A DNA stretch of 64,000 bases from Opitutaceae bacterium (GTDB taxonomy: Bacteria; Verrucomicrobiota; Verrucomicrobiia; Opitutales; Opitutaceae). Below the pieces are notes generated by a model. The model did not search any database, was not told the origin of the DNA, and was given only the letters and a program-made list of their open reading frames with translations. Location: contig JAUYAK010000099.1 in assembly GCA_030693515.1 (NCBI GenBank), positions 1 through 64,000 of the forward strand, given 5' to 3'. Positions 16,890 to 31,674 of the stretch are shown in pieces (position 1 is the stretch's first letter; each line of letters begins with the position of its first letter). Position numbers and translations under genes: made by a program.

Positions 16890-17270
16890 TCAGTTTGCAT
16901 CGTCGGGCGAGTCGGCCTCATCCCCATCTCTCCAGTGACACGAAACGACTCTGCCTTCCGATACGATAAAATGCGCCCGGCACTTCACCTTGCGCGCGAC
17001 GGACGGGCTGATCGTCGGATACCCATGGCGCCCCCGCCGCAGTTTCCATCGGGGACGGGTGGTCGGCAGGAGATTCAGATAGACAATATCTCGGCAGCCA
17101 CACGGACAGACAAACGCCGCGGCCCATTCTTGCCCGCCTTCGCCTTGCACGAAGACGGTATCCGGGTGCCAAGCGTCCGGCCAGTCAGCTACCAGCTCAA
17201 CGCGGAGGAAATGTGGCGGTGCCGCGAAGAGTTCACGGAAACTGGGAAACCAGTTCGGGAAAAATCTCAT
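16890..17270 (-). CDS. DUF6527-type protein of the ubiquitin-like cassette
   Basis: A protein of 126 aa. Start ATG 17270 overlaps the stop of the JAB-E1 gene by four bases (ATGA); a further upstream in-frame start at 17282 would add four residues. It carries a likely metal site: CPCGC (Cys55, 57, 59), then KCRAHF (Cys97, His100) and GRVVSCHW. PRW and TISPSV are the other conserved-looking blocks. This pattern fits DUF6527, a family found next to bacterial E1/E2/JAB genes. Its molecular role is unknown; a substrate-recruiting or RING-like job is only a guess. Confidence 0.8.
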   Translation of the reverse strand: MRFFPNWFPSFRELFAAPPHFLRVELVADWPDAWHPDTVFVQGEGGQEWAAAFVCPCGCRDIVYLNLLPTTRPRWKLRRGRHGYPTISPSVARKVKCRAHFIVSEGRVVSCHWRDGDEADSPDDAN

Positions 17271-18649
17271 GTAGACGGCCAAGCCAGATCGAGCAACGGA
17301 CTCCGATCACCAAGTCCGACGCGGCGATTCAGGAACGGACACACAGCGGGGAAGGAACGCGATTCGGCGTAGCCGCCGGAGAGATTGAAGAGCACCGCAT
17401 CGACGTCGTCGTTGGATTCGTAACGAAATGGATGCACCCGCGCCAAGAAATCATTCACCGCGAGCGACGCGTAGAGGCCGTTCACACTGGACACGGCCGG
17501 GCTATCGACCTGAACGTTGCGAAGATATCCGACTCGCCGCTGTTTTTCGTATTCGACGGGGTCGCTGCGAAAAAGGCTGTCGGCATTGATCGCGTCGACG
17601 CTGATTACACCCCGGCTCAGCAAGCTCGATTCGCCCGGTTGCAGATAGTGGCAGCCGCCCCCGACGTAGTCGATGCCGCCCTTCTTGTCCGCGTCCAGTC
17701 GCACGCCGACATCGAAATACGGGAGGCAGTAGAACGTCGCAATGCGGTTGAGCAGCTCGCGGCCGTCGGCCGAATCCAGGCAGCCGAACAATACGTCACA
17801 GCCCGCCAAACAGTCGATCACTGGTTGATGGCGCAGATCGCTCCGGACGGCGCGCACCGTGGTGCTGTAGCCCATCGCCTCGACGGCGCGCTTGAGCACC
17901 TCCACCTTCGGCCGCTGCGCGTCGGCGTCCGCGCGGGTGCTGTTGATAATGCGGTTAAGGTTCTTCGCCTGAATCACGTCGGGGTCGACGAGGACGAGTC
18001 CACCGACGCCGAGGCGGGCCAACATCTCCACCACCCAGCTCCCTGTTCCGGAGCAGCCCGCGACACCGATCCGAAGTGACTTGAGGATTCGCACCGTGCC
18101 CGGGCCGAAGGCCTGCACGTTACGCAGGTCCGCCTCGCTCGTGGTGATCTCGCGGTCTTGATCGAAAAAATCGACATCGCCGCCCGCAACCGCGACCCTA
18201 TCAAGGGCAAGAAAATCGCCCGCCGGCCCCACCACCCGGCCAAAGATTTTTCCGCCGGGCAACACGACGGCGCTGCCGTGGGGCACGTAACCGTTGGTCC
18301 AGCCGGATAACGCCCCGAAAAGCTCGGCGTCAGATTGATCGTCCTGGCGGGAATACTCGGCGAAACCGCCGGGATGACTGTGGATTTTCACGACCGCGCA
18401 GTCTTCGCGCATGGCCGTTTCGAAAAGTGGCAGACCCAAGCGGGTCGGCCATTGCAATAGGTCCGGTCGGCGAATCGAACAGGCGTGGTCGGGGATCGGC
18501 AGGATCTGGCGAACGCAGAGCGCGGTGACGTCCTCGCCCCGGTGCAGACCGCAGAGCAACAGGGCCACGGATTCCAAACCGTCGCCGGGAAAAAGGTGCG
18601 CCCTGAGCGAATTCCAGTGCGCACCCGAGATGCGAAGGTGGTAGCGCAT
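17267..18649 (-). CDS. JAB (JAMM) peptidase fused to ThiF/E1-like adenylyltransferase
   Basis: A protein of 460 aa; ATG 18649 is chosen because upstream codons overlap the preceding gene. Residues 1-150 are a JAB/JAMM domain with the full motif: Glu26, HSH at 90-92, then PGGFAEY, Ser100 and Asp103, exactly the HSHx7SxxD pattern, so deconjugase activity is likely. Residues 185-460 are an E1/ThiF/MoeB domain: nucleotide loop GVAGCSGTGSW (195-205), VDPDVIQAKNLNR with the conserved Asp, Asn and Arg, and Lys248. Possible thioester cysteines are Cys308 and Cys333. It starts five bases after the Ubl-E2 gene. It would activate the Ubl with ATP, while the JAB part trims or removes it. Confidence 0.92.
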   Translation of the reverse strand: MRYHLRISGAHWNSLRAHLFPGDGLESVALLLCGLHRGEDVTALCVRQILPIPDHACSIRRPDLLQWPTRLGLPLFETAMREDCAVVKIHSHPGGFAEYSRQDDQSDAELFGALSGWTNGYVPHGSAVVLPGGKIFGRVVGPAGDFLALDRVAVAGGDVDFFDQDREITTSEADLRNVQAFGPGTVRILKSLRIGVAGCSGTGSWVVEMLARLGVGGLVLVDPDVIQAKNLNRIINSTRADADAQRPKVEVLKRAVEAMGYSTTVRAVRSDLRHQPVIDCLAGCDVLFGCLDSADGRELLNRIATFYCLPYFDVGVRLDADKKGGIDYVGGGCHYLQPGESSLLSRGVISVDAINADSLFRSDPVEYEKQRRVGYLRNVQVDSPAVSSVNGLYASLAVNDFLARVHPFRYESNDDVDAVLFNLSGGYAESRSFPAVCPFLNRRVGLGDRSPLLDLAWPST

Positions 18650-18654
18650 CGGCG

Positions 18655-19383
18655 TCACGCCGCCTTCGGAAACTCCCGCTCGAGCCAGTGACGGACCAGC
18701 GAGAGGTGGGTGAGCACGCTGAACTCGCCGGGAACCCAGGGATTTTGCGGAGTGTAGTGGCGCGACCAACGCTGGAACGATTGCCCGTCGAGCAGTTGCG
18801 TCGACTCCGTCGCCGCGATGGCTTTGCCGTCGCTGCGCACCAGCGCCGGGAAGAAATACACCATGTCGAGTTGCTCGACCGGGTAGTTCTGGGAAATACG
18901 GATCGCCACCGCGGTGGTCTCGACGCGATACCCGTGCGGAAGCGGATAACGGTGAACGAGGAGCCACATGGCCCCGCCTTCGACAATCGTTTCCCACGGC
19001 AGACCGAGGGTATCGAGTCCCTCGACATCTTCCGACGGCAGGACGGCGTTGCGCCGCAGCGCCGGCTCCTCGCCCTCGGTTTGGTCCTTCGGCATGACCA
19101 TGAACCGCTCGACGCCGGGTTCGGTCAAGTCGACGACGTCCTTGAGTTCGATGGTCACCGTCCCCTTGCCTTTCTTCATCGTGAGGAGCCAGTTTTCGGG
19201 CGGCACCTTGCCGGTGATGGTCAGGATTTCGCGGCCGGTGAGTTTTTCCTGATCGGTGGTAAACGTCTCCTTGCCGACGCGAAACTTGTAGCGTTTGGCC
19301 TTGGGCACGGGTTTCCCGGCTTTGGCGTATTCCTCAAGGTCGATGATGTCGTCGCTGGGGGACGGAGTTTTTGAACTATTCAT
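18655..19383 (-). CDS. Ubiquitin-like domain fused to a prokaryotic E2-like domain
   Basis: A protein of 242 aa from ATG 19383. After a charged, disordered N-terminus, residues 30-98 look like one multiubiquitin-type beta-grasp domain (RYKFRVGKETFTTDQEKLTG, then LTITGKVPPENW, ending MVMPK). Residues 114-240 resemble the Prok-E2_E family: LPWETIVEGGAMWLLVHRYP, YPVEQLDMVYFFPAL, DGQSFQRWSRH and a WxPGxxSxxTHL end. Two oddities stand out: the whole protein has no cysteine, so it cannot form a standard E2 thioester, and it has no C-terminal Gly-Gly. It is first in the operon with JAB-E1 and DUF6527. Confidence 0.85.
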   Translation of the reverse strand: MNSSKTPSPSDDIIDLEEYAKAGKPVPKAKRYKFRVGKETFTTDQEKLTGREILTITGKVPPENWLLTMKKGKGTVTIELKDVVDLTEPGVERFMVMPKDQTEGEEPALRRNAVLPSEDVEGLDTLGLPWETIVEGGAMWLLVHRYPLPHGYRVETTAVAIRISQNYPVEQLDMVYFFPALVRSDGKAIAATESTQLLDGQSFQRWSRHYTPQNPWVPGEFSVLTHLSLVRHWLEREFPKAA

Positions 19384-19486
19384 GTGGTTTGTATTCTTGG
19401 TTTGGTTTGAGCCGTGGTGGCGTCGACATGAATAGCCGAGGCGTGACATCTCGCCGACATCGAGCCAGGTTTCCCCGGCAAGACCG
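19384..19486. promoter_or_regulatory. Shared divergent promoter region
   Basis: 103 bases separate the start codons of the Ubl-E2 operon (minus) and the sigma-factor operon (plus). Both promoters must lie here. The T/G-rich run TTCTTGGTTTGGTTTGAGCC is the only notable feature. No recognisable -35/-10 pair of the housekeeping type is clear, which would fit control by the adjacent sigma factor (inference). Confidence 0.4.
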
Positions 19487-20161
19487 ATGGAACCGCAACC
19501 GGCATTCCGCGCGCCCGAGGACGCCGTCGACACCTATGACGACGTGGAGCTGTTTGTCCGCATCGCGGACCGCGAACGGGACGAAGCCGATGCCGACGCC
19601 GCTTTCACGATTTTCTTCGAGCGGCATGCAGAGTTTCTGCGCCGCTGCTGCGTCAAATATCATTACGACCATACCGCTCTGGGGGATCAGGATGTCGTGA
19701 CGCGGGCCATGTGCGCCATCTACCGCGGAGAGGCGGTCTTTGCGCCCCCGGCGCGGGCATCGAGCGAGACCGTCCGCGCGCACTTGCGGAAGTGGCTGAT
19801 TCAGGTGGCGCGCAACCAGTTTTACGGGGAGATTCGCAAGCTGCGTTTCGATCAAAACGTCGTCCCGTTGGAGCCCGACACCGACGCGCCTGTCACGCCG
19901 GAGATATACAGGGATGATGAACCGCTCCCTTCCCCTGAAGAACGCACCCGTATCCTGCAATTCCGGGATCAGTTAAAGCCCGTCGACCAAATCATTTTCG
20001 ACCGCTCGATTCCGTATTATGACCGTGTCACTGGAACGTTCAATGTGCCGCCCAAAGTGGCACAGGACATCGCGGCCGAGGTCGGCAAGAACGTAGTCGC
20101 CGTGCGCAAGCGGCGGGAACGAATGATGACCGCCCTCAAGACGGCGATGACTGCCGGTTGA
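19487..20161 (+). CDS. ECF-like RNA polymerase sigma factor
   Basis: A protein of 224 aa. Residues about 20-110 fit a sigma-2 region (FFERHAEFLRRCCVKYH, then HLRKWLIQVARNQFYGEIRK). The C-terminal part, VAQDIAAEVGKNVVAVRKRRERMMTAL, fits a sigma-4 helix-turn-helix. It is larger than most ECF factors because of an insert between the two. It is transcribed away from the Ubl operon and heads an operon with a small protein and an ImmA/IrrE peptidase. It probably directs transcription of one or both arms. Confidence 0.75.
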   Translation: MEPQPAFRAPEDAVDTYDDVELFVRIADRERDEADADAAFTIFFERHAEFLRRCCVKYHYDHTALGDQDVVTRAMCAIYRGEAVFAPPARASSETVRAHLRKWLIQVARNQFYGEIRKLRFDQNVVPLEPDTDAPVTPEIYRDDEPLPSPEERTRILQFRDQLKPVDQIIFDRSIPYYDRVTGTFNVPPKVAQDIAAEVGKNVVAVRKRRERMMTALKTAMTAG

Positions 20162-20173
20162 TGCATTTTTGCC

Positions 20174-20530
20174 ATGGCTAAGAAAAAAAACCTCACCGAT
20201 CACGAAGTGGCCCGCGCGGCCTACCATACCCTGAAGGACGAGGGCTTGGTGCCGCCGCAGTCGGCGGACGAGATTGCAGCGTTGGAGGGCGAGTTTGGTG
20301 TCTATCCCAAACCCAAGGTGAGCGCCGCCAGCGTGCTGAAGATGGCCAAGGGAGAGGCACCGATGCCGGAGATTGCGGCGGGGACTCCTTTTCCTGAGCT
20401 GAAAAGTAAGATCAAAGAAGAACTCGGTCTGGCGGCGCGCAAGGGCGGCGACATTTCGGCCGAGGTGTGGGCGAAAATGAAAACCGATCGGGCAAAAGCA
20501 CAGCATGAACGGTCCAAGCAAAGAGTCTAG
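20174..20530 (+). CDS. Small protein between sigma factor and ImmA/IrrE peptidase
   Basis: A protein of 118 aa, Lys/Ala/Glu-rich and probably helical, starting MAKKKNLTDHEVARAAYHTL. The segment ADEIAALEGEFGVYPKPKVS may be a flexible linker. It starts 12 bases after the sigma gene and its end overlaps the peptidase gene by 26 bases, so the three are translationally linked. No family recognised. By analogy with ImmA/ImmR it could be the peptidase substrate or an anti-sigma factor; that is inference only. Confidence 0.65.
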   Translation: MAKKKNLTDHEVARAAYHTLKDEGLVPPQSADEIAALEGEFGVYPKPKVSAASVLKMAKGEAPMPEIAAGTPFPELKSKIKEELGLAARKGGDISAEVWAKMKTDRAKAQHERSKQRV

Positions 20531-21395
20531 TCCGTCGATTGCCTCGGGCCGTCGCCAGTTCCTGATCGATCTCGCCGAGTCAACCGCCGACGACTACTGC
20601 GGGGGACAGCCGCAGGTGGACCCGGCGGGCATTTTGGATGAAAATGACGTCACGATCAGCTACGACGACTACGGCCCTTTCTTCGACGGCATGCTGCATC
20701 ACGAAGCGGGGACCTTCCACGTCTACTGTAACGAACACCGGTGCGGCTCCCGGCAGGAAGGCCGAGCCCGGTTCACCTTGGCGCACGAACTCGCGCATTT
20801 TCTGATTCCGGAACACAACGCCGCTTTGCGCAGTGGAGTGGCGCCGCACCACCCCTCATTCTGCAACAAGGCCAATGCGAAGCTCTACGTCGAAGTGGAG
20901 GCGGATTTCTTTGCGTCCCGCGTGTTGATGCCGGAAGTCCGCTTCCAAGAAGTGTCGCACCGGTGCGGGTCAGGATTGGGCGCCATGCGCAGGACGGCGA
21001 ATGAACTCGGAACGTCGCTGCAGAGCACGGCCCGCCGGTTCGTCGACTCGCCGACCCACCCATGTGCGTTCGTCGTCTGGCGCGATGGCAAGGAACCGTG
21101 GTTCGGGGTGTCGGCTGCGCTGCGGAAATACGGATTCATCTTCGTCAAGCGGCGATCCTCACTGGCGGAGGGTTCGGCGACGGCCGTAGCCTTGGGCGAG
21201 CCGGTGCGGTCAGTGCCGGAAATACGGGAGAGCGTCTCCTTGATGTCGCTATGGTTCTCCGGCGTGTTCGACGGAAGCGACCGCGATGTCGCGGTCAGAG
21301 AGGAGGCCATGAAAACGGCGTATGGGACCATTACGTGGCTGTCGGTCAATCCCGCGTCGCTGGCTAGGCTCAAAACGCTGGATCAAGTCAGTTAG
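20505..21395 (+). CDS. ImmA/IrrE-family metallopeptidase
   Basis: A protein of 296 aa. The zinc-binding motif is FTLAHELAHFLIPEH (about residues 91-105), and the third ligand lies in EVEADFFASRVLMP, the standard ImmA/IrrE signature. The C-terminal 120 residues have no recognised fold. Family members cleave repressors (ImmA on ImmR, IrrE/PprI on DdrO) in response to DNA damage or phage. Here the likely target is the co-encoded 118-aa protein or the sigma factor. The following 224 bases (21396-21619) hold no gene that I can support. Confidence 0.88.
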   Translation: MNGPSKESSPSIASGRRQFLIDLAESTADDYCGGQPQVDPAGILDENDVTISYDDYGPFFDGMLHHEAGTFHVYCNEHRCGSRQEGRARFTLAHELAHFLIPEHNAALRSGVAPHHPSFCNKANAKLYVEVEADFFASRVLMPEVRFQEVSHRCGSGLGAMRRTANELGTSLQSTARRFVDSPTHPCAFVVWRDGKEPWFGVSAALRKYGFIFVKRRSSLAEGSATAVALGEPVRSVPEIRESVSLMSLWFSGVFDGSDRDVAVREEAMKTAYGTITWLSVNPASLARLKTLDQVS

Positions 21396-21619: not shown

Positions 21620-24600
21620 TCACACCGCGATTCGCGTGCGCGCCGATTTCTTGGCACCGGTGCGCACGGCGACGGTGATGTTGGTTTTCTCCACAGGCGC
21701 CTCGATCGGGACAGCAGATTCTCCAGGCGGCCCCTCTTCCGTATCGGCGGCCAGCCCGGTCGAACTCTGATTTTTGTTGAGGTCGAGGGCCTGCACGAGT
21801 TCCGCCTGCCGGGCGACCACCTCGCGAAACCGCGACTCATGCTCGAAGGGCAAGCCCATCAGCGCCGACATTTCCGTGATATTTTGCCGCGTGCGTGCGA
21901 GTCCTTCCCGAGCATTCGTGATCCGTTCCTCGATCGACCGCGCCGCGTGCTCCAGCGAACTGATGACGCCGAGCGGGTTGCCCGAGACATTCGCGTCGTA
22001 GGACATCGCGCCGCGCAACGTGACTTTCTCCTGCACGAATGGCCGAAACTCCAACCGGAACCCGGCAAAATTTCCCAGCTCCACGGGACCGCGCGCAGAT
22101 TTCTGGCGGTCCACCAGCCCGATCAGCATCGCGCCGGCCTCCGCACGTTCCTCGTAGGTGCGCCCAACCAGCATAATTTTGAAGTTCTCACCACGCGTAT
22201 CGACCCGTTGCCGCAGGTCGGACTCATGCGCGGTCACGGCCTGCTCCAGCCGGCGCACGTCTTCTTCCATCATGTGCAGCCGGCGGCGGGCGTTGTATTG
22301 GTCCTCGTCGTGCTGGCCACGCAGCCGCGAGAGCCGCATGACCTCGGAATCGATCTTGGCTTTCTCGATGACGAGTGGGTTGCCAGACGCGATGGCCTTC
22401 ACTTCCGCATAGGTGAGCGCGGGCGAGTCGAGATCCTCGATGCGCCGCGCGGTGCATTCCCCGGTCATGATTTGCTGGATGAACTTCGCCTTCGTTTCGA
22501 GCGTTTGCCACATGTAGGCGTCGAAACTCCCGGCCGTGACGTAGCGCAGCACCCGGACCACGGCGTTGGAATTGCCCTGCCGCATAATCCTGCCCTCGCG
22601 TTGCTCGATGTCGGACGGCCGCCACGGCGCGTCGAGGTGATGCAGCGCGACGAGCTTCGTCTGCACGTTCATGCCCGCGCCCATTTTCTGCGTCGAACCC
22701 ACGAGAATGCGGATTCGACCCGCGCGCACATCTTTGAAGAGCGCGGTTTTCGCCGCGTCGCTGTCGTGGTCCTGGATAAAAGAGATTTCCGGCGCAGGCA
22801 CCCCGGCGACTACAAGCTTGGCCTTGAGCTCGTCATAGACCGAGAACACGTGGCCACCACTCTTCGGTGTGGAGAGATCGCAGAACACGAGTTGGGTGAG
22901 ACGCTGCTCCTTGGTCTCCTGCCACACAGCGAAGATTTCGCGGACGGCGTGGTTCACCTTGAATTCGGGATTGTCTGGCATCGATCCGAGCACGAGCCGC
23001 AAATCGAGCGCCGCTTTGCGGCCCTCGCCGGTGATTTTCAGCATATTGTCTTCCCACGGTGGCACGTGGTTGGTTTTCAATCGCGCCGCGCGGTCCGCGA
23101 GAGTGCTGACGAGCGCGGTCAATTGCGGCGTAGCCTTCGCCGTCACCACGCGCGCCTTGCCGCCGTCGAGCGCAGGCACCGGCAGCTTGAGCATGTCCGC
23201 CGTCTGAATATCCGCTGTCTGGCGGAAAATGTGCATCAGCTCCGGCACGTTCACGAACCGCGCGAAGCGCGTGTTGAGCCGGTAGCCGGCGCCGTCGGGG
23301 GCGAGTTCGAGCGCGCAGACCGATTCGCCAAAAGTCGCGGCCCACGAATCGAAATGCTGGAGTCGGCGTTGCAGGAGCGCGTCCATTTGGAGAAAACGCT
23401 GCAACGTGAACATCTCCGCCATCGTGTTGGTCACCGGCGTGCCCGTGGCGAACACCACGCCGCTGCCATCGTTGAGCCGCTGCACGTGCTGCACTTTTAG
23501 AAACATGTCGAAGGCCCGCTCCGAGGCGGTCTGCGGCAGCCCGGCTACACGCGTCATCTTTGAGATGTAGAACAAATTCTTGTAGGCGTGCGCTTCGTCC
23601 ACGAACAACCGATCCACCCCCAGCTCCTCGAACGTGAGGGTGTTGTCCTTGCGGTGATCGGCGGCGAGATTCTTGAGTTTGAATTGCAGCCGCTTTTTTG
23701 CGACCTCCAGTTGCTTCACGATCCGGCTGTTCGACTCGCCGGATGTTTCCCGGATGCACGCCTCCAGCTCGATGAGTTGATCCTCGAAAAATTTCTTCTG
23801 CGCCGCCGTGGAAAGCGGCAGCCGTTCAAACCCAGAATGCGTCACGATGACGGCGTCCCAATTGTTGGTCGCGATCCGGCCCATCAGCTCGCGCCGGCGC
23901 GAACTCTCGAAATCCGCTTTTCCCGCCACGAGAATGTTCGCATTGGGATAAAGCGTGAGCAGTTCGCCGGAAAACTGCCCGAGCATGTGATTCGGCACGA
24001 CGAACATCGGCTTCCGTGCGAGGCCCAGACGTTTCAATTCCATCGCCGCCGCGACCATCGTGTAGGTTTTTCCGGCACCGACGACGTGAGCGAGAAGCGC
24101 GTTGGGCGTCTGGAGAATCCGCCACACGCCCGCTTTTTGATGCGGACCGAGGACGATCGCGGGACTGGCACCAGGCAGCGAGAGGTGATCGCCGTTAAAC
24201 GTTCGCAGCCGCAGGCAATTGAACTCGCGGTTGTAGGCCGCCACGAGGCGCTCACGCCGGGCGTCGTCTTCCCAAATCCATTCGGCGAACCGGTCCTTGA
24301 TTTTCTGCTGCTTTTCGCGGGCGGCCTCCGTAGCCTTGGCGTTGACGGTGGCTTTGCCCTCGTCGTCGTAGTCGTAGATCGTCGGCGTGCGCAGGTTCAG
24401 CGCGCCCTCGATCAGCTCGTTCGCCGGAGCGCGCTCCGTGCCCCATTCGGTGCGGTTCGCCACGCCGGTCTTCACAAAATGCTCCGCCTCGACAGTCCAG
24501 AGGCCGACCTGCGGCACGTGGACCACGCGCACTCCGTCCGAATTGGCCGGCACGCGGAGAAGCTTGCGGGCGAACAGGGCGATGTCGTCGGCCGGAATCC

Positions 24601-26797
24601 ACACCGCGCCGAGCCGCGCATCGACTTCGCTCGCCTTGAGGTCCGGCGGCTGGACAGCCCGCAACGCCTCGGCATTTTCGCGAAAACGCGCATCGCGTTT
24701 CGCCGCCTTTTCGGCGACAGCCAATTTTTCCCGCACGTTGCCGGAGAGGTAATCGTCCTCTGTCTCCCATTTTTTATTCTCGGGATTGAGAAAAATCGCG
24801 CCGCGCAACTCCGGCAGAAACTCCGCCGGGGGCTTGCCGACCAGTTCACCGATCCGTTCCAGATCGACCCGGGCGCGCTCGTTGAGCGTTACCACGAGCG
24901 CCTCCTTTGCCGTCTCGACGCGCTCGACTGGCAATTTTCGCTGAATAGTCCGCTCGCGAAAAACGGCGGTCTTCGCCGCCGTGCCGGCGTCCTCGTCGTA
25001 GTTTTCGAGCGACAGGAGCAACGGCAGGTCGGGATCGCCCACGAACGCGCGCATGTTGGCGGTTTCCGACACCGGCCCGAATTGGCCGGTGAACTGGTCG
25101 TAAGCCTGATTCAGCCGGAACCGCGCAGATTCGATTTCGAACTCGCTCCGATCCTCGACCTGGACTTGCAGGCAGGTCCGGGCCGCGTCTCGCACGCGGA
25201 TCATCCCGCGCACCCGCCGCGCCGTTTGCGCCGGCACGTCGGTGAGCACCACGAGTTCGTCTCCCTCGCGTCGCGCCAGACCACCGCCGCCCGCCTCGGT
25301 GAGCACATACGCACCGGGTTTGACGCCGGGCGGCGCGGGCATCGCCTGACGAAACGTCATCGCCTGCGCGGCCGTGAGCGGTTGATAGAGCTTCGGCGGG
25401 AGTTTCGCGAACGCTGACGCCATCGCCTCGCCCAAGTCGCGCCCGTCGTCCACGAGCGACGGCTCGGAGCGCCCATACAGGCCGTGCTCCAGAAGTTCCA
25501 AGCGGCCCAGCATCAGGTGGGGATGCCGGTGAAAATACTCGTTCACCGGAGCCGTCTCCCCGTTGCCGAGGTCGAACGGTTTGCTCTCCAGCCACGTCGG
25601 CCCGGCGGGTGGTTCGCCGGAAATCCGTTTTCGTAGGATGATGATGTCCGTCGTGACCCGAGTGTTCGCGTTCTTTTGAAACGCGGTATTGGGCAGCCGG
25701 ACGGCGCCGACCAGATCAGCCTCCTTCGCGATGACCTCGCGCACCGCGGGGGCCAGCTTGTCCATCGTGCCGCGCGTGGTGATGAACACGACCAAACCGC
25801 CCGGCCGCACCCGCGCGAGCGAGGCAGGGAAATAATAATCGTGGATGTGGAATTTGCGCGGGTTAAACTTTGCGTCGAACGGCGCGTAGTCACCAAACGG
25901 CACGTTGGAGATCGCGAGGTCGAAATGATTCGTCGGCAGCGTGGCGTCCTCGAAGGCCTGCGCCCGGATGTCGGCGTCAGGGTAGAGCGCCTTGGCCAGC
26001 CGCGCGGTCAGTGGGTCGATCTCGACCGCAGTGATCGGTGACCGGCCGCGCATGTCGTCGGGCATGAGACCGACAAAATGTCCGAGCCCGCAGGCCGGCT
26101 CGAGAACGCGGCCGTGCGCGAAGCCGAGCCAGGTGAGCGCGGCATACATGGACTTGATGACGAGCGGAGCGGTGTAGTGCGAATTGAGCACCGTCGCACG
26201 CGCCGAGCGGTATTCGTCAGGCAAGAGGAATTCCTTGAGCGTCGCCTGCTCAGTTTTCCATTTCGGCGCTTCGTCAACCGTGGCAAACGCCTGCGGTAAA
26301 CCGCCCCAGCCGGAGTATTGCACGAGCACCGCCTTTTCCTCCGCCGTAGATGGCCGGGATTCCTCCTCGATCACGCGCAGCAATTGAATCGCAGCAACAT
26401 TGCGCTCGAATTTCTGGCGCGGCGAGCCGTCGCCGAGGCGGTCGGCATCGGTGATGCGATAACAATTTCCGTTGAGCGGCCCGGCTATTCCGGCGACTCC
26501 GCCGGGAGAAGCAGATATTTCTCCCGGACCAGTTCCCACGCCTGATCGTGTGCCTGCTGCGGTGTCAGCCCCTGCCGTTGAAAGTCCCGCAGCAGGGGAA
26601 TCATCTCTCCCGTGGTCTGCTCCTGCGCTTCCAGCAGAGCCTCCTGCAATTTCCCCTGCGCCTCCAGTTCGCGCACCAGCCGCGGGCAATGTTCCCGCCA
26701 ATGGGCTTCCGCCATCCGTCCGTATGCCAGGAGTCCGCTCATGCGTTAGCTCGGAAAAGAAATCGAGCTGGTCGTCGTTGGGTCTTTTCTGCGCCAT
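21620..26797 (-). CDS. N6-adenine methylase / SNF2-like helicase giant protein
   Basis: A protein of 1725 aa. After a short N-terminus and a Gly/Ala-rich linker (about 20-105, where a second gene overlaps), residues 110-390 form a class-I methyltransferase: motif I VLEPACGLGHF near 233 and motif IV NVPF near 298, an NPPY variant. The C-terminal half is an SF2/SNF2-type ATPase: Walker A HVVGAGKTYT near 904, VDEAHAYKN near 1064, FATGTPVTNT, and motif VI QREGRIMRQG near 1399. Such methylase-helicase fusions are carried by plasmids and integrative conjugative elements and are thought to protect incoming DNA. It is third in the relaxase operon and starts three bases after the preceding stop. Confidence 0.9.
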   Translation of the reverse strand: MAQKRPNDDQLDFFSELTHERTPGIRTDGGSPLAGTLPAAGARTGGAGEIAGGSAGSAGADHGRDDSPAAGLSTAGADTAAGTRSGVGTGPGEISASPGGVAGIAGPLNGNCYRITDADRLGDGSPRQKFERNVAAIQLLRVIEEESRPSTAEEKAVLVQYSGWGGLPQAFATVDEAPKWKTEQATLKEFLLPDEYRSARATVLNSHYTAPLVIKSMYAALTWLGFAHGRVLEPACGLGHFVGLMPDDMRGRSPITAVEIDPLTARLAKALYPDADIRAQAFEDATLPTNHFDLAISNVPFGDYAPFDAKFNPRKFHIHDYYFPASLARVRPGGLVVFITTRGTMDKLAPAVREVIAKEADLVGAVRLPNTAFQKNANTRVTTDIIILRKRISGEPPAGPTWLESKPFDLGNGETAPVNEYFHRHPHLMLGRLELLEHGLYGRSEPSLVDDGRDLGEAMASAFAKLPPKLYQPLTAAQAMTFRQAMPAPPGVKPGAYVLTEAGGGGLARREGDELVVLTDVPAQTARRVRGMIRVRDAARTCLQVQVEDRSEFEIESARFRLNQAYDQFTGQFGPVSETANMRAFVGDPDLPLLLSLENYDEDAGTAAKTAVFRERTIQRKLPVERVETAKEALVVTLNERARVDLERIGELVGKPPAEFLPELRGAIFLNPENKKWETEDDYLSGNVREKLAVAEKAAKRDARFRENAEALRAVQPPDLKASEVDARLGAVWIPADDIALFARKLLRVPANSDGVRVVHVPQVGLWTVEAEHFVKTGVANRTEWGTERAPANELIEGALNLRTPTIYDYDDEGKATVNAKATEAAREKQQKIKDRFAEWIWEDDARRERLVAAYNREFNCLRLRTFNGDHLSLPGASPAIVLGPHQKAGVWRILQTPNALLAHVVGAGKTYTMVAAAMELKRLGLARKPMFVVPNHMLGQFSGELLTLYPNANILVAGKADFESSRRRELMGRIATNNWDAVIVTHSGFERLPLSTAAQKKFFEDQLIELEACIRETSGESNSRIVKQLEVAKKRLQFKLKNLAADHRKDNTLTFEELGVDRLFVDEAHAYKNLFYISKMTRVAGLPQTASERAFDMFLKVQHVQRLNDGSGVVFATGTPVTNTMAEMFTLQRFLQMDALLQRRLQHFDSWAATFGESVCALELAPDGAGYRLNTRFARFVNVPELMHIFRQTADIQTADMLKLPVPALDGGKARVVTAKATPQLTALVSTLADRAARLKTNHVPPWEDNMLKITGEGRKAALDLRLVLGSMPDNPEFKVNHAVREIFAVWQETKEQRLTQLVFCDLSTPKSGGHVFSVYDELKAKLVVAGVPAPEISFIQDHDSDAAKTALFKDVRAGRIRILVGSTQKMGAGMNVQTKLVALHHLDAPWRPSDIEQREGRIMRQGNSNAVVRVLRYVTAGSFDAYMWQTLETKAKFIQQIMTGECTARRIEDLDSPALTYAEVKAIASGNPLVIEKAKIDSEVMRLSRLRGQHDEDQYNARRRLHMMEEDVRRLEQAVTAHESDLRQRVDTRGENFKIMLVGRTYEERAEAGAMLIGLVDRQKSARGPVELGNFAGFRLEFRPFVQEKVTLRGAMSYDANVSGNPLGVISSLEHAARSIEERITNAREGLARTRQNITEMSALMGLPFEHESRFREVVARQAELVQALDLNKNQSSTGLAADTEEGPPGESAVPIEAPVEKTNITVAVRTGAKKSARTRIAV
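26485..26742 (-). CDS. Nested 85-aa gene overlapping the methylase-helicase start
   Basis: A second reading frame on the same strand encodes MSGLLAYGRMAEAHWREHCP and continues as a charged, helical protein (RELEAQGKLQEALLEAQEQT, ending LLLPAESPE). Its composition is strongly protein-like, while the overlapping part of the large protein is low-complexity Gly/Ala/Thr, the usual sign that the smaller frame is the selected one. I recall similar short proteins from conjugative elements, without known function. Either both frames are used or the large protein starts differently. Confidence 0.6.
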   Translation of the reverse strand: MSGLLAYGRMAEAHWREHCPRLVRELEAQGKLQEALLEAQEQTTGEMIPLLRDFQRQGLTPQQAHDQAWELVREKYLLLPAESPE

Positions 26798-26800
26798 GCG

Positions 26801-27151
26801 TCATGAGGATTCAATCGCGATTCGACGCACGATCGGTCCAGGCCGCGCGCTCGGGCGCTGGCCGTTGACGCGCAGTTGGACGAGCCGCACCTCGTCCAAC
26901 GCGTCGCGCACGGCCGCGAGTAGTTTGCCCTCGACCGTGATGACCGTCTTTTCCGTTTTGATTTCCAAGCACTCGGGATCGCCGCCCACGAGTTCCCAGC
27001 GTTTCAATTCCTTCACTGGAAAAGAAACCGTTCGGTCGGCCAGAATGAAGCGCACGACATCCGAAGTCTTGCCCTCCGGCTTCACTTCGCCCCACGGCGG
27101 CTCCGGCACCGGACCGAGCGGGTCTTTGGCAGGGTTCTGCTTGATGCTCAT
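26801..27151 (-). CDS. Hypothetical protein in the relaxase operon
   Basis: A protein of 116 aa starting MSIKQNPAKDPLGPVPEPPW. The middle part reads as a compact beta domain (VVRFILADRTVSFPVKELKRW, then CLEIKTEKTVITVEGKLLAA) followed by a helix and an Arg-rich tail. Its start overlaps the relaxase stop by four bases (ATGA), and its stop lies three bases before the methylase-helicase start. No family recognised. A longer frame in another register (26811-27194) is less protein-like and is rejected. Confidence 0.75.
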   Translation of the reverse strand: MSIKQNPAKDPLGPVPEPPWGEVKPEGKTSDVVRFILADRTVSFPVKELKRWELVGGDPECLEIKTEKTVITVEGKLLAAVRDALDEVRLVQLRVNGQRPSARPGPIVRRIAIESS

Positions 27152-29784
27152 GGCGACACTCGGGACCCGCTCGGCGACGCAGGGCGCAAGCCACGCCCCG
27201 GTGATTCCGACGGCGAGGCCGTCGGTGAGTTCATTTCCAAAACCAATTTCCGGTCGCCGGTGTGCATCATCGCCTCACGGGCTTCTATGCGGTCGGTGGT
27301 ATAGATCGCCTGGCTTTCGCGGAAACGGGAATTGGAGACGTAGGCTTGCTTGAGGTTCCCGGCGGCAATGCCGGCCTCAGCCATAATCAACAGCCCCCGG
27401 TCCACCGTTTTTCCCTGAGCTGCGTGCGAGGTCGTCGCGTAACCGTGGGTGAACTGCCGGAATCCGGGCGGAATCTCCCGCCCGTCTTTCAACGCAATCG
27501 CTCCCTTGTCCGTAAAACCAGCGACCTCGACCAGATCGCCGTTGCGGAGTTTCGACTTCTTCTGGTTCCCCCGCAACAGTAGCCGGTCGCCGACCGCCAC
27601 GTCGACGTCACGCATCAGCCCGACATCGAATCCGCTCGCCCGCCGCGGACTAAACAGGGTGCGTCCGCCGTCCTCGAATTGGACGGTGAGCACCTCGGGA
27701 TCGCGGGCCACGACCGTGAGGCACTCGCCCTTCGCCCAGTTGCCGGAGGAACGGTGAAACAACAGCACCTGCCCCGGCTGGTAGTTGTCGAGGTCGCGCA
27801 TCTGCGCCTTGGTCCATTGCAAGGAAAACATCGCGGACATCCGGCGCTCTCCTTCGGCGAGCAACCCGGCGGCGCGCATCTGTTGGCGCACCTCGCCGTT
27901 GAACGCGTGGATTTCGTCCCACACCGGCGAGATCGCGAGACAGCTCTGACCGCCACGCACGGTGGTGACGTAGTCCGCCGCCGCCGCACGAAAGAGGGCG
28001 GCTTGGTCGGAGTTTTCACGCACCGCGCCGAGCTTCACGAAATGATTGAACGCCCCGAACGCCTCGCCCTTCGCGAGCAGCGCCACGGCGGCACGATAGC
28101 GCGGCGATCGCTGGCGCCGGATTTTCGTCAATCGGAACACCGGCACTTCCGCGAATTTCTGGAGGCAGCGCAGCGCGTCGCCGGCCTCCACCGAAGAATG
28201 CTGCTTCGTGTCGCCGACCAGCACGAGCCGGTTGCCGTTGGCGTGGGCCAGCCGGCACAGGTCGCGCATCTGGCGCACCGACACCAGTCCCGCCTCATCG
28301 ACCAACAACACGCGGTCGCGGACGTGACGTTGCAGCGATTCGTTCACGAGCAATTGCTGCAACGTGTCGGCCTCCGGTGTCAGTTCGCGCCGAAGCACGT
28401 CGGCCGCACCCGAGGAAGGCGCGCACCCGAACACGCGGCCACCGGCCTGTTGGATACCCGCGACCACGGCCTGAAGGCACGTGGTCTTCCCTGTGCCGGC
28501 ATCGCCGGCGAGCACGGTCACGCGGGAGCGTGACGCCAGGAGCCCAGCCACGGCCTCGCGTTGATCCTCGGCCAGCGTCGATTCCGCCGGATGCCGGCCG
28601 AGATACCCGCAGCTCTTTCGGCCCGCCCCGGCCCATGCGACGAACTCTTCCTCCGCTTTCGCGCCGTCGCGCGAAGCCACTTCGTCACCCGCCACCCGTA
28701 ACTCTCCGGACGCGACCCGTGAGCCCAACTCCACCCGCAGGTCCGAAACCCCGACGTGACCCCGGCCGAACACGAGTGCCTCGCGCAGCAGGTCACGCGT
28801 CGCCACGACAGATTTTCGCTCGAAGACGTGGGCCTCGGCGGCGGCCAGCACTTCGCCCGGCTTCGCCGCCGGCCGATCCGCTGGCTTGCCTTGCGTGGCC
28901 GCAATCACCGCCCGGATCGTCGCCAAATCCGCTCCGGCACGCACTTCCCAGCCAGCTTTCAATTCTGCGGCGGTCGCGTGCCGCTTTGCTGCCCGCGACT
29001 CCAAGGTGATCGTCTGCAAGTCGTCCTGACTCATCGTCCCGCGTTCTGCCGCGATCGCTAGGATTTGCTTACGGCGTTCGCTGAATTCTCCGCGCAGGCG
29101 CTCAGGAAACCCCTTGATCGTAAACCCGATGGTGCGCTGTCGCTCCAGTTCGTAGCCGGCCGTCTGCATCCGCGCGGCCAATCGGTTGTAGCAAACCTCA
29201 CGAAAGAAACCCTGATGCCGGAGAAACCCGAACGGCTGCACGCCCTTCCAGCGTTTCTCCACGGGATCATACGTGACGTTCAGGACGCACATGTGGGTGT
29301 GCAATTGCGGGTCGAGCGCGCGGCTTGTGTCGTGCGTGACAACGGCGGCAACTAGGTTGCCGGTCGTCCGGTCCTCGTTTTTCCCGCCGACCCTCACGCG
29401 CGTCGCCGTCACCGCTTCGATTTCGCGCATCGTCTCCTGCACCGCGTCGCGCCACCAGCTTTCGATGCGCCGGTCGCTACCCACGTAGAGAGCGATTGAG
29501 ACATCCTTGGGCGCGGAGATTTGGCCGAAATAGCACACCCGCCGTGCGCCTCCCTTGTCCCGCACTCCCAGCTTTTCATCCGTCGCGGGATGCCTGCCTG
29601 CACACAATCGCTCCAAGGCCACTAACTCACACGAGCCGTTCAAACCGAGTCGAGCGGCACCCTGACCAAACCACTCCATTTCAACCTGACCGCTTTCCGT
29701 GAGATAGTCACCCACCTTCAAATGCTCCCGGAAATAATTCACGGCAGCACTTACCCGCTTACATGGTTTATCGAATCTGACCAC
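27148..29784 (-). CDS. MobF-family relaxase (TrwC/TraI type)
   Basis: A protein of about 878 aa from the GTG at 29784; a TTG at 29796 is the alternative. The N-terminal relaxase domain has candidate catalytic tyrosines (AVNYF, GDYL) near residues 17-27 and the three-His metal site: THDTSR, then DPQLHTHMCVLN. The C-terminal part is a RecD-like helicase with Walker A LAGDAGTGKTTCLQ and LLVDEAGLVS. MobF relaxases nick oriT, stay bound to the 5' end and unwind the strand to be transferred. The gene reads away from the oriT candidate at 29797-30088. Confidence 0.93.
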   Translation of the reverse strand: MVRFDKPCKRVSAAVNYFREHLKVGDYLTESGQVEMEWFGQGAARLGLNGSCELVALERLCAGRHPATDEKLGVRDKGGARRVCYFGQISAPKDVSIALYVGSDRRIESWWRDAVQETMREIEAVTATRVRVGGKNEDRTTGNLVAAVVTHDTSRALDPQLHTHMCVLNVTYDPVEKRWKGVQPFGFLRHQGFFREVCYNRLAARMQTAGYELERQRTIGFTIKGFPERLRGEFSERRKQILAIAAERGTMSQDDLQTITLESRAAKRHATAAELKAGWEVRAGADLATIRAVIAATQGKPADRPAAKPGEVLAAAEAHVFERKSVVATRDLLREALVFGRGHVGVSDLRVELGSRVASGELRVAGDEVASRDGAKAEEEFVAWAGAGRKSCGYLGRHPAESTLAEDQREAVAGLLASRSRVTVLAGDAGTGKTTCLQAVVAGIQQAGGRVFGCAPSSGAADVLRRELTPEADTLQQLLVNESLQRHVRDRVLLVDEAGLVSVRQMRDLCRLAHANGNRLVLVGDTKQHSSVEAGDALRCLQKFAEVPVFRLTKIRRQRSPRYRAAVALLAKGEAFGAFNHFVKLGAVRENSDQAALFRAAAADYVTTVRGGQSCLAISPVWDEIHAFNGEVRQQMRAAGLLAEGERRMSAMFSLQWTKAQMRDLDNYQPGQVLLFHRSSGNWAKGECLTVVARDPEVLTVQFEDGGRTLFSPRRASGFDVGLMRDVDVAVGDRLLLRGNQKKSKLRNGDLVEVAGFTDKGAIALKDGREIPPGFRQFTHGYATTSHAAQGKTVDRGLLIMAEAGIAAGNLKQAYVSNSRFRESQAIYTTDRIEAREAMMHTGDRKLVLEMNSPTASPSESPGRGLRPASPSGSRVSP

Positions 29785-29796
29785 GCCTGCTATCAA

Positions 29797-30088
29797 TCAT
29801 AAACCCATAACAAAAACCAGCCTAAACCCATAACAATCAGCTCTCATCAGTCCGCTTGATCACATTTTTATTCCCCAATTTTGATGAAAGACTAAGTCCA
29901 ACTGGAACGCAGACTAAGCATCCGCCTTGAACCTATCATCTCTGGAATACTCGACACCCCACCCCTAACGTCCGTTAGGTCCAAGTCCGGCGAAGCGCCA
30001 CTACATCACTACTCCGCCACTACTTCATCGCCACTACGGCTTGGGTAAACCCATAGGTTTTTGATTTACTTAAACCCATAAATAAACG
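29797..30088. other. Candidate oriT / divergent regulatory region
   Basis: This 292-base, A+T-richer, gene-free stretch separates the relaxase from the TraK-like gene. It holds four copies of an AAACCCATA repeat (29801, 29824, 30047 and 30072), the inverted repeat CCTAAC-GTCC-GTTAGG (29964-29979), and three GCCACTAC units with a related ATCACTAC (29996-30037). Iterons, an inverted repeat and a position between relaxase and accessory genes are the hallmarks of a transfer origin. The repeats beside each start codon may also be operators for autoregulation. The nick site is not identified. Confidence 0.55.
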
Positions 30089-30484
30089 ATGATCGGGCTT
30101 GTGATCGAAACGCCCGAACTATTCGCCCGTCTGCTCGACGACGCCCGGCGCTACGACCCGACCGCCCACACGCGGGGCCTCCTCGCGCCTTATCGCGAAG
30201 TGCTCCTGCTCCAACGGGCCAAGTATATGAGCTACGAGCAAATCGCGGCCACGCTCACGCGGCATGGGCTCAAGGTTTCGCCCGCGGGAGTCGGCGTTTA
30301 TTGCCGGCGCACGTTCGACAAAGCCGAGATCGAACGAATACGGCGGCACCTGACGGTGGAGGCGGCGACCAGCGCCGCGCCACGCTCCACAACACCACGA
30401 TCGGTGCTACCGCCACTCGCTACGCCAAGCGTCACGGCCACACCAGGCAAACGCGGTCCGAAAATCGCCCGCGACAACTACTGA
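30089..30484 (+). CDS. TraK-like oriT-binding accessory protein (putative)
   Basis: A protein of 131 aa starting MIGLVIETPELFARLLDDAR. The central YMSYEQIAATLTRHGLKVSP, followed by VGVYCRRTF, reads as a helix-turn-helix. The tail is Pro/Thr/Arg-rich. Size, position next to the oriT candidate and the following ParA-like and coiled-coil genes match the RP4 traK-traL-traM order. TraK of RP4 binds and bends oriT. The family assignment rests mainly on context. Confidence 0.65.
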   Translation: MIGLVIETPELFARLLDDARRYDPTAHTRGLLAPYREVLLLQRAKYMSYEQIAATLTRHGLKVSPAGVGVYCRRTFDKAEIERIRRHLTVEAATSAAPRSTTPRSVLPPLATPSVTATPGKRGPKIARDNY

Positions 30485-30496
30485 TTTCACAAACCC

Positions 30497-31204
30497 ATGC
30501 ACGAACCCACCAAACGCATTATTCTCTGGCCGCAAGACAAGGGCGGCATCGGCAAGAGCTTCGTCGCCGCCCTCATCTATGACTACCTCACCGACGAGCG
30601 GGTCCGGCTCAAATGCTTCGACCTCGACCACGCGAATTCCACGTTCAACCGGCTAGTCCCCGAGGCCGAGTTCATCGACACCGACGTCGCCGCCGACAAG
30701 CTCTGCACGCTGGACCGAATCGTGGACGCCACCAAGCAAGCCGACACGGTGCTCGTGGACAATCGTGCCACCGGCGGCAGCAAGGTGATCGCCTATTTGG
30801 ACGAATCCCGGCTCCCGCAGCTCCAACACGAACTCGACTGCGCCCTCGTCTTTGTCCTGATCGCCACCGACGACAAGGACGCGAATTCGCAGATCGCGGA
30901 TTTGCTCGATGCCTATGCGACGCGCGTGCGCTGGCTCGTGGTGCGCAATCTGCGCGACAGCGACAGCCTGACACTTTTTGGGCAGAGCAACTCCCGCAAG
31001 CGGCTCCAGGAACTCGGGGCCATCGAGGTCGATGTGCCGTGCCTCGCGGAGGTGACGCGCAACCGGTTGCAAGAGGCGAATCTCACCATCGGTCGCGGGC
31101 GCACATCGGACGCCCTTCCGCTGCTCGACCGTTCCCGCTGCATCCGTTTCCACGAACGCATGGTAGGGGAATTCACGAAGGCCCGCGCGCTGTTGATCGG
31201 ATGA
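30497..31204 (+). CDS. ParA/TraL-like P-loop ATPase
   Basis: A protein of 235 aa with a deviant Walker A motif QDKGGIGKSFVAALI at residues 13-27 (KGGxGKS, as in ParA/MinD ATPases). CFDLDHANST and TVLVDNRATGG act as Walker A' and B equivalents. RP4 TraL is of similar size and type and lies in the same gene order. It could position the relaxosome or the element DNA. Its stop overlaps the next start by four bases. Confidence 0.8.
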   Translation: MHEPTKRIILWPQDKGGIGKSFVAALIYDYLTDERVRLKCFDLDHANSTFNRLVPEAEFIDTDVAADKLCTLDRIVDATKQADTVLVDNRATGGSKVIAYLDESRLPQLQHELDCALVFVLIATDDKDANSQIADLLDAYATRVRWLVVRNLRDSDSLTLFGQSNSRKRLQELGAIEVDVPCLAEVTRNRLQEANLTIGRGRTSDALPLLDRSRCIRFHERMVGEFTKARALLIG

Positions 31205-31674
31205 AACCCGAAGACCTGCTCAATCCCGAGAATTTTCCCGAAGAGCTGAAATGGGTGCCGGCCCACTACCGGCTCCATCCCAGCGATCCGGTCTATCTGC
31301 TGATCGCGTGGCACTGGCAGCGGGTCAAGAAGTCCGAGGATTCGTTGGGGAACGCGATCACGGAGTTGAAGGCCGCCCTCGACGGCCGGCTCACCGAGCT
31401 CAAGGCGACGGCGGAGAAAATCGCGGGCGTCAACACCGCCTTGGGACAAGTCCAGGAGACTCTGTCGAAGAAGCCGGCTATGCTGGGCCAGGAACTTGAA
31501 GCTCAGCTCAAGCAGCCAGTCGCGGCCGCCGTCGCCCAACTGCAAGTGTTGGAAAAATCGCTGGCGCCCGTGGCGAACTCGTTTCAAACGGCGCAGCGCC
31601 GGCAGATGCTATCCGTGCTCTTGATTGGCGTGGCGTTCGGATTGGTCTCCGCTGCGATCCTGTTTCACTCGTGA
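31201..31674 (+). CDS. TraM-like coiled-coil membrane protein (putative)
   Basis: A protein of 157 aa. Residues about 45-130 are heptad-rich (LGNAITELKAALDGRLTELK and onwards) and predicted coiled coil. One transmembrane helix lies at the C-terminus (MLSVLLIGVAFGLVSAAILF). It overlaps both neighbours by four bases. Size and place match TraM of RP4-type transfer regions; the sequence alone would not prove it. Confidence 0.65.
   Translation: MKPEDLLNPENFPEELKWVPAHYRLHPSDPVYLLIAWHWQRVKKSEDSLGNAITELKAALDGRLTELKATAEKIAGVNTALGQVQETLSKKPAMLGQELEAQLKQPVAAAVAQLQVLEKSLAPVANSFQTAQRRQMLSVLLIGVAFGLVSAAILFHS

Follow-up and report, generated by a model that had tools for sequence, protein, structure and literature searches.

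The DNA analysed here, hereafter the window, is a 64,000-nucleotide stretch of an Opitutaceae bacterium (GenBank assembly GCA_030693515.1, contig JAUYAK010000099.1, positions 1 to 64,000). By its sequence, the operon formed by three close minus-strand genes spanning 19383 to 16890 is a Bub operon, a cassette for the conjugation and deconjugation of a ubiquitin-like protein (Ubl). It is faced at 19487-21395 by divergent genes coding for a sigma-type protein, a small protein and a CapP-like metallopeptidase, which might constitute its regulatory switch. The identity of the operon and the chemistry proposed for it, taken as one reading, are highly probable in our judgement, and the control of bub by a sigma factor freed by a protease has about even chances of being correct. 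The cassette adds a further Bub operon to an already known type; the novelty, if any, lies in the sigma-type controller alone.

Identification of the Bub operon

The BubAB gene (18655-19383, minus strand, ATG start) encodes a protein of 242 residues in which a Ubl domain (approximately residues 32-104, with Gly104 as C-terminal residue) is followed by a cysteine-less E2 domain (residues 105-242). The BubCD gene (17267-18649, minus strand, ATG start) begins 5 nt past the BubAB stop codon and codes for a 460-residue protein composed of a JAB/JAMM peptidase and a ThiF/E1 domain. It overlaps by 16 nt the third gene (16890-17282, minus strand), which starts with TTG, or with an ATG four codons later, and encodes a DUF6527 protein of 130 residues, the kind of protein that we take to be called BubE. 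Pfam recognised Multi_ubiq (E 7.7e-9) and Prok-E2_E (E 4.4e-35) in BubAB and Prok-JAB (3e-7, N-terminal) and ThiF (1.6e-28) in BubCD, the E-values of these two proteins being computed on longer mechanical open reading frames (292 and 576 aa), as well as DUF6527 (E 3.8e-19) in the third gene product. When all PDB sequences were searched, the best match of BubAB was Citrobacter BubB (E 2e-27) and that of BubCD was Citrobacter BubCD (9ea4, E 7e-71, query residues 15-456). The Ubl part of BubAB matched the C-terminal domain of the multi-ubiquitin protein 9d59 (1.1e-6) and Citrobacter BubA (9ea8, 4.5e-5). The operon was assigned to Bub because its best PDB matches are Citrobacter BubB, BubCD and BubA, and a chance origin is excluded by the Pfam E-values, the PDB matches and the residues conserved across as many as 95 aligned loci. 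The window thus holds the components of a Bub or type 6e operon: a Multi_ubiq-type Ubl with a Gly end, a Cys-less Prok-E2_E domain, a JAB-E1 protein with complete JAMM and a DUF6527 protein.

A preliminary description of this DNA, made from its letters, had recognised a Ubl-E2 fusion, a JAB-E1 fusion and a DUF6527 gene, all of which were borne out by Pfam, the PDB matches and conservation. It had also read the three genes as a cassette that attaches and removes a ubiquitin-like tag; the kind of system was right, and Pfam and the Citrobacter homologues in the PDB identify it as Bub. The divergent genes at 19487-21395 had not been linked to it. The opinion that this layout is little described does not hold, as it is found in row 6e of Iyer et al. 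2006 (PMC1779556), 44 of 94 loci are fused and the Citrobacter structures have been solved; the same 44 of 94 loci rule out a fusion special to Verrucomicrobia. As to the role in phage defence that was invoked for related systems, protection by Bub is not demonstrated according to the available part of a 2026 paper (PMC13373217).

Conserved residues and predicted conjugation chemistry

The JAMM residues E26, H90, H92, S100 and D103 are present in BubCD, together with the E1 motif GxSGTGS from G198 and with R233, K248 and D285, in agreement with the complete JAMM and nucleotide-binding motifs first described. The JAMM residues are kept in 95 of the 95 aligned BubCD proteins and the E1 motif residues in 94-95 of them. 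An interpretation of the E2 part as a cysteine E2 had to be abandoned, since BubAB contains no cysteine at all. Its E2 domain carries the conserved QRWSRH sequence (Ser207 and His209, within 18655-19383, minus strand), and Q, W, S, R and H of the corresponding Q-x-WSRH motif are each found in 94 of 94 relatives. Many relatives do have a Cys in the E2 part, none of which is conserved in at least 90% of the 94 E2 domains. In the PGxSSL stretch of BubCD, the position of Ser342 is occupied by Ser in 85, Thr in 9 and Gly in 1 of the 95 aligned E1 domains; this region is presumably the usual place of the ThiF/E1 catalytic Cys.

The abstract of Ye et al. (NSMB 2026) reportedly describes oxyester chemistry and a Ser-His peptidase role of BubE. 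The conserved Ser/Thr on E1 and Ser on E2 would fit such chemistry, and their places are plausible. In the pathway that we propose, the E1 domain would adenylate Gly104 and the Ubl would be moved via E1 Ser342 and then E2 Ser207 to its target, being carried on both serines as oxyesters, not thioesters. It would be taken off the target by the JAB domain and/or the DUF6527 protein. The output could be a stress response or phage defence.

In the DUF6527 protein, Cys59, Cys61, Cys63, Cys101, Ser94 and His104 (CPCGC...PS...C..HF) were identified; Ser, His and three Cys are present in 91 of 91 relatives and the fourth Cys in 90. Because it is paired with a Ser invariant in all 91, the His of the Cys/His metal site in the preliminary description could serve in catalysis instead of binding a metal. 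The protein is a candidate second deconjugating or maturing peptidase. Its AlphaFold2 model (mean pLDDT 83) consists of strands with almost no helix; comparison of this model with PDB folds gave no match below E 0.8, and the PDB profile search of DUF6527 gave nothing useful.

The Ubl-E2 fusion as a putative pro-protein

The arrangement of BubA and BubB was classified in 94 of 96 loci, L006 (Ubl not found) and L055 (E2 or Ubl not found; its match begins at base 136 of the locus) being dropped; L001 and L002, being fragments of the window itself, were set aside. BubA and BubB are separate in 50 loci and fused in 44, and one Ubl domain was found in 39 of the fusions, two in 3 and three in 2. The last Ubl domain is closed by (E/D/N)G in 94 of 94 loci. 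In 36 of the 50 loci with a separate BubA, the protein ends exactly at this Gly, and in the other 14 it has a tail of 2-10 residues; the 44 fused proteins all run beyond the Gly into the E2. G104 of the window aligns with the BubA C-terminus and is equivalent to the shared Gly. As split and fused BubA have the same C-terminal Gly, the fused BubAB looks like a pro-Ubl that needs to be cut. Eukaryotic ubiquitin-ribosomal-protein genes likewise encode pro-proteins. The JAB domain or the DUF6527 protein is the likely cutter, and a cleavage after Gly104 by either would release mature Ubl and E2 in equal amounts.

The PDB chain 9d59 stops at the Gly matching G104, and in the Citrobacter freundii plasmid copy (L017) Ubl and E2 are encoded by one gene of 362 aa, suggesting that the Citrobacter system used for the structures could also be naturally fused. 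The useful point is that nearly half of the examined Bub operons are natural Ubl-E2 fusions, which would need a cut after an invariant Gly.

Divergent genes encoding a sigma-type protein, a small protein and an M78 peptidase

The start codons of the BubAB and sigma-type genes are separated by a divergent intergenic region of 103 bp (19384-19486), in which the promoters of both bub and the sigma gene are expected. On the plus strand, this region is followed by the genes for an ECF-like (extracytoplasmic function) sigma-70 factor of 224 aa (19487-20161), for a small protein of 118 aa (20174-20530), which is a candidate anti-sigma factor or cleavage substrate, and for a CapP-like M78 (ImmA/IrrE) metallopeptidase of 296 aa with an HELAH motif (20505-21395).

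The 224-aa protein was recognised by TIGR02937 (E 9.7e-7, 28.6 bits) and by no Pfam family. A profile made of 33 sigma-type neighbours matched SigW in the PDB (E 1.6e-15) and aligned over nearly its full length with solved ECF factors, for instance at positions 12-221 with the RNA polymerase sigma-E factor 1or7. In the Foldseek comparison of the predicted model (pLDDT 85, pTM 0.55), ECF sigma factors made up 8 of the 10 best matches (best E 2e-3, TM-scores of 0.26-0.32 by query). The membership of the sigma-70 family that a switch like that of the CRISPR-associated Calp system implies was thus found, with a single-protein NCBIfam score below the curated cut-off. The tblastn search of plasmids with the window sigma protein gave no match, and profiles were therefore used for the sigma search.

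The 118-aa protein was aligned with 20 proteins occupying the same place at other loci, and G24 and P28 were invariant; its candidacy as a sigma inhibitor cut by the protease is based on this conserved place and motif. Neither this protein nor its 224-aa neighbour matched a helix-turn-helix (HTH) family. The 296-aa peptidase matched PADLOC capP (E 1.1e-40) and Pfam Peptidase_M78 (E 9.1e-9), and its HExxH motif is seen in the sequence. Of the CapH+CapP controller, the CapP-type M78 peptidase is therefore present in the window and a neighbouring HTH repressor CapH is not.

Recurrence of the three divergent genes

The related loci (80) were taken from 409 relatives as those most similar to the window BubCD and are not a random sample. 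The three best are titled Pontiellaceae, Verrucomicrobiia and Pelagicoccus, which makes the probable verrucomicrobial origin given in the preliminary description plausible, and related BubCD loci bear titles from many bacterial phyla. TIGR02937, an ECF model, matched 28 of 34 divergent neighbours at E 0.01 or better. These 34 are a size-chosen part of 49 unclassified neighbours, window included (the 15 left out are those of L018, L022, L030, L036, L037, L039, L047, L048, L049, L052, L068, L078, L088, L097 and L098). No likeness to sigma factors was seen in the neighbours of L029, L044, L051, L058 and L074; they were kept out of the sigma profile and are still in the count of 28 of 34.

Among the 79 loci of the GTDB collection with BubB, the divergent neighbour is of the sigma type in 41, CapH-like in 6, CapP-like without sigma in 10 and of another kind in 19, 3 loci being too short. 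The sigma-type genes come from several phyla. The figure of 41 of 79 was the same with two anchors, L065 being counted with one anchor only and L088 only with the other. A small-protein match was obtained at 24 and a CapP-like match at 20 of the 41 sigma-type loci. The sigma and small-protein counts are partly circular, as the profiles were built in part from the same loci. The TIGR02937 count and the small-protein searches of two phyla are more independent, but the small-protein model includes L041 (G387), the window and L004 (G018), and the sigma model the window, L003, L004 and L009 (G018, G075).

In the phylum of the window, 387 genomes were searched with the small-protein profile, which detected 6 places in 5 of them, window included. 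All 6 lie between sigma-type and CapP-like genes (5 were re-read with longer flanks), and 5 of them are divergent to a Bub or Bub-like operon. The phylum to which L041 belongs, a locus titled as a Bacteroidia metagenome-assembled genome, was represented by 395 genomes and yielded 15 places, 14 with a sigma-type and 13 with a CapP-like gene. The divergent operon is Bub or Bub-like at four of them (L100, L116, L117 and L120, the last two without E2 profile match), CBASS at four (L118, L119, L122 and L126) and Bil-like at one (L115, with a YukD-type Ubl, JAB above and ThiF below the cut-off, and E2 not recognised). At five places (L121, L123, L124, L125 and L127) no recognised immune operon was seen in the gene layout, which was judged without a Pfam scan, and one (L114/L128) is a weak match without sigma.

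Several variants were observed at individual loci. In Robbsia (L016, 811-4233) and Abditibacteriota (L019, 835-4272), a gene annotated as an ATP-dependent/PcrA-type helicase comes after the sigma and small genes, where an M78 peptidase gene would otherwise stand. The next gene of L013 (3321-4757) and of L088 (5671-6138) begins with MTSEVVVMN..GVALA-DSA-TV in both; by eye, we take it to recall an Ntn-hydrolase or proteasome-like protease, and Pfam gave no match over the cut-off for the L013 copy, the one scanned. The small protein is joined to a longer C-terminal part in L062 (5560-6375), L067 (5536-6381) and L095 (5552-6400); this part presumably resembles SocA/Panacea, and Pfam recognised no family in the scanned L116 copy. 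At the Bub-like L117 (4742-5942), the JAB-E1 fusion gives way to a DUF6791 protein together with a short protein that matches BubCD; this layout may be compared with the domain that replaces JAB in Iyer et al. 2006.

Proposed sigma switch and promoter evidence

As far as the available part of PMC13373217 describes it, CapP is activated by single-stranded DNA and cuts CapH. In the type III CRISPR system Calp, a protease cuts the anti-sigma factor CalpT and frees the sigma factor CalpS (PMC12751052, available part). It is because of this common logic that a switch is proposed here. In the resting cell, the small protein would hold the divergent sigma factor; once active, the CapP-like peptidase would cleave the small protein, so that the sigma factor could transcribe bub and its own gene. 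The activating signal may be single-stranded DNA, as for CapP elsewhere. If this is true, we know of no earlier switch of this sort in which a sigma factor is released by an M78 protease.

The inverted-repeat test (50 intergenic regions, 40 shuffles each) gave p<0.03 in just 11 regions, the window not being among them; by this simple test, its own region has no significant inverted repeat (p 0.15). Of the 50 intergenic regions, 10 contain a divergent GTGACA...TGTCAC pair, compared with 0.08 expected from shuffles, for a motif that was chosen after inspection of the sequences. All 10 loci have Bacteroidota-type titles, and the window has no such pair. Among 8 further loci, it was found only in L116, apparently the same contig as L095. 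Such pairs would agree with promoters being shared at some of the Bacteroidota loci. Upstream of bub in L041, the divergent region contains the pair two times.

Several points weigh against the switch and the chemistry proposed above. The 28.6 bits of the 224-aa protein lie under the TIGR02937 curated cut-off of 42.9. The 118-aa protein matched no known anti-sigma family in the family library scans, and the PDB profile search of the small protein gave nothing relevant. Small-protein and CapP matches occur together in just 17 of the 41 sigma-type loci, some of which carry other genes, for example a helicase gene, and the intergenic region of the window has no clear paired promoter motif. As to the chemistry, in one E1 domain (Planctomycetes L018) the residue equivalent to Ser342 is Gly, and the abstract of Ye et al., as it is reported to read, is the basis both for the oxyester route and for BubE acting as a Ser-His peptidase.

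Genomic setting

Next to the cassette, the region 21620-33167 of the window codes for a SNF2/methyltransferase-like protein of 1725 aa, a TrwC relaxase-helicase and a coupling-type protein of type IV secretion systems. Relatives of BubAB are carried on 90 plasmid records. A phage origin finds no support in a tblastn search with BubCD, which gave no match at E 1e-5 among 50,697 phage records.

Alternative explanations

The E2 part could be without catalytic activity, an RWD-like domain for binding, in which case the E1 would by itself pass the Ubl to targets. Iyer et al. 2006 (PMC1779556, available part) read the Cys-less domain as inactive, and a conserved Cys is indeed absent among the 94 E2 domains. 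However, the invariance of Ser and His of Q-x-WSRH in 94 of 94 would hardly be required of a mere binding domain. Oxyester chemistry, as the Ye et al. abstract is said to report it, likewise points away from a dead E2, which we regard as improbable. An operon that regulates host proteins in general stress or as an addiction-type system, rather than against phages, has more in its favour, as the protection by Bub is not demonstrated and the stress and addiction alternatives are raised in the available parts of PMC13373217 and PMC1779556 (Iyer et al. 2006), respectively. Yet the same kind of gene triad adjoins CBASS operons and one Bil-like operon, and the setting is mobile, with the 90 plasmid records and the conjugation-type genes beside the window copy; this alternative is possible, although it appears rather unlikely.

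The conjugation-type genes can also be taken to mean that the sigma, small-protein and M78 genes belong to a mobile element and exert no control on bub, in agreement with the 5 of 15 places where the gene layout, its neighbours being judged without Pfam scan, shows no recognised immune operon. The divergent sigma-type genes that recur at 41 of 79 Bub loci, several phyla being represented, argue against such a coincidence, as do the 5 of 6 small-protein matches facing a Bub or Bub-like operon in the phylum of the window, and it is hardly to be expected. A somewhat more serious competitor, which we nevertheless consider doubtful, is that the small protein and the CapP-like peptidase act like CapH+CapP, the small protein being a DNA-binding repressor and the sigma-like protein a degenerate accessory. 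A CapH-like neighbour at 6 and a CapP-like one without sigma at 10 of the 79 loci would agree with it, and the small protein of Abditibacteriota has by eye a helix-turn-helix look, for which no HTH family was matched. The window small protein, however, is without HTH match, and the nearly full-length alignment of the sigma profile with solved ECF factors speaks against a degenerate protein.

If the triad works as a sigma switch, it would be shared by several ubiquitin-like and cGAS-like immune operons and would tie their expression to the proteolysis of a sigma inhibitor. It would also offer a direct way to induce Bub and to seek its targets and role, on which our literature search found no report. 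In the available part of PMC13373217, 544 Bub operons are counted, 219 with CapW or CapH+CapP and 59 with CapK+CapS; the switch could cover part of the operons without a named controller, which number 266 of 544 if the groups of 219 and 59 are disjoint.

Comparison with known systems

The Bil system (BilABCD) has the same set of Ubl, E2, E1 and JAB peptidase. It is made of four separate proteins with a Cys E2, whereas the window has two fusions, a Cys-less E2 and a DUF6527 protein; on this definition of Bil, the Cys-less E2 and the fusions rule out membership. Type II CBASS, in which a CD-NTase is accompanied by the E2-E1 fusion Cap2, was likewise rejected on account of the Cys-less E2 and because none of the 7 proteins scanned matched a CD-NTase. 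Among the PADLOC matches listed (25 of 31), the cassette is represented by its E1 domain only.

As regards the control region, Craspase, with Csx29/Csx30 and a sigma factor, is reportedly also an immune switch made of protease, inhibitor and sigma factor. Calp (CalpL/CalpT/CalpS) uses the same three kinds of components (PMC12751052, available part). The proteases differ, being Lon-SAVED in Calp, TPR-CHAT in Csx29 and M78 here, and the small proteins are likened by their presumed role. CapH+CapP and CapK+CapS are controllers that adjoin Bub and CBASS operons (PMC13373217, available part), and the CapP-type M78 peptidase is common to CapH+CapP and the window; a sigma factor and a small protein are found here instead of the repressor. 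In its available part, that paper mentions anti-sigma-like proteins and no sigma-factor controller.

The type 6e operon of Iyer, Burroughs and Aravind 2006 (PMC1779556, available part of Table 1) comprises, as here, a PolyUbl/Ubl, an E2-like domain that is separate or, in some species, fused to the Ubl, a JAB-E1 fusion and a metal-binding protein. The signature of the latter is C-x3-C-x(35-38)-H-x2-C, in contrast with C-x3-C...C-x2-H in the window, and the text of PMC1779556 contains neither a word beginning with Verrucomicrob- nor the word sigma. Finally, the Citrobacter freundii plasmid copy differs from the window by two Ubl domains found instead of one, and no sigma, small-protein or CapP profile match was obtained beside it. 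The Citrobacter Bub system (PDB 9ea4, 9ea5, 9ea8, 9eae and 9eav; chain 9d59) nevertheless shares with the window a homologous Ubl, an E2 with WSRH and the JAB-E1 fusion.

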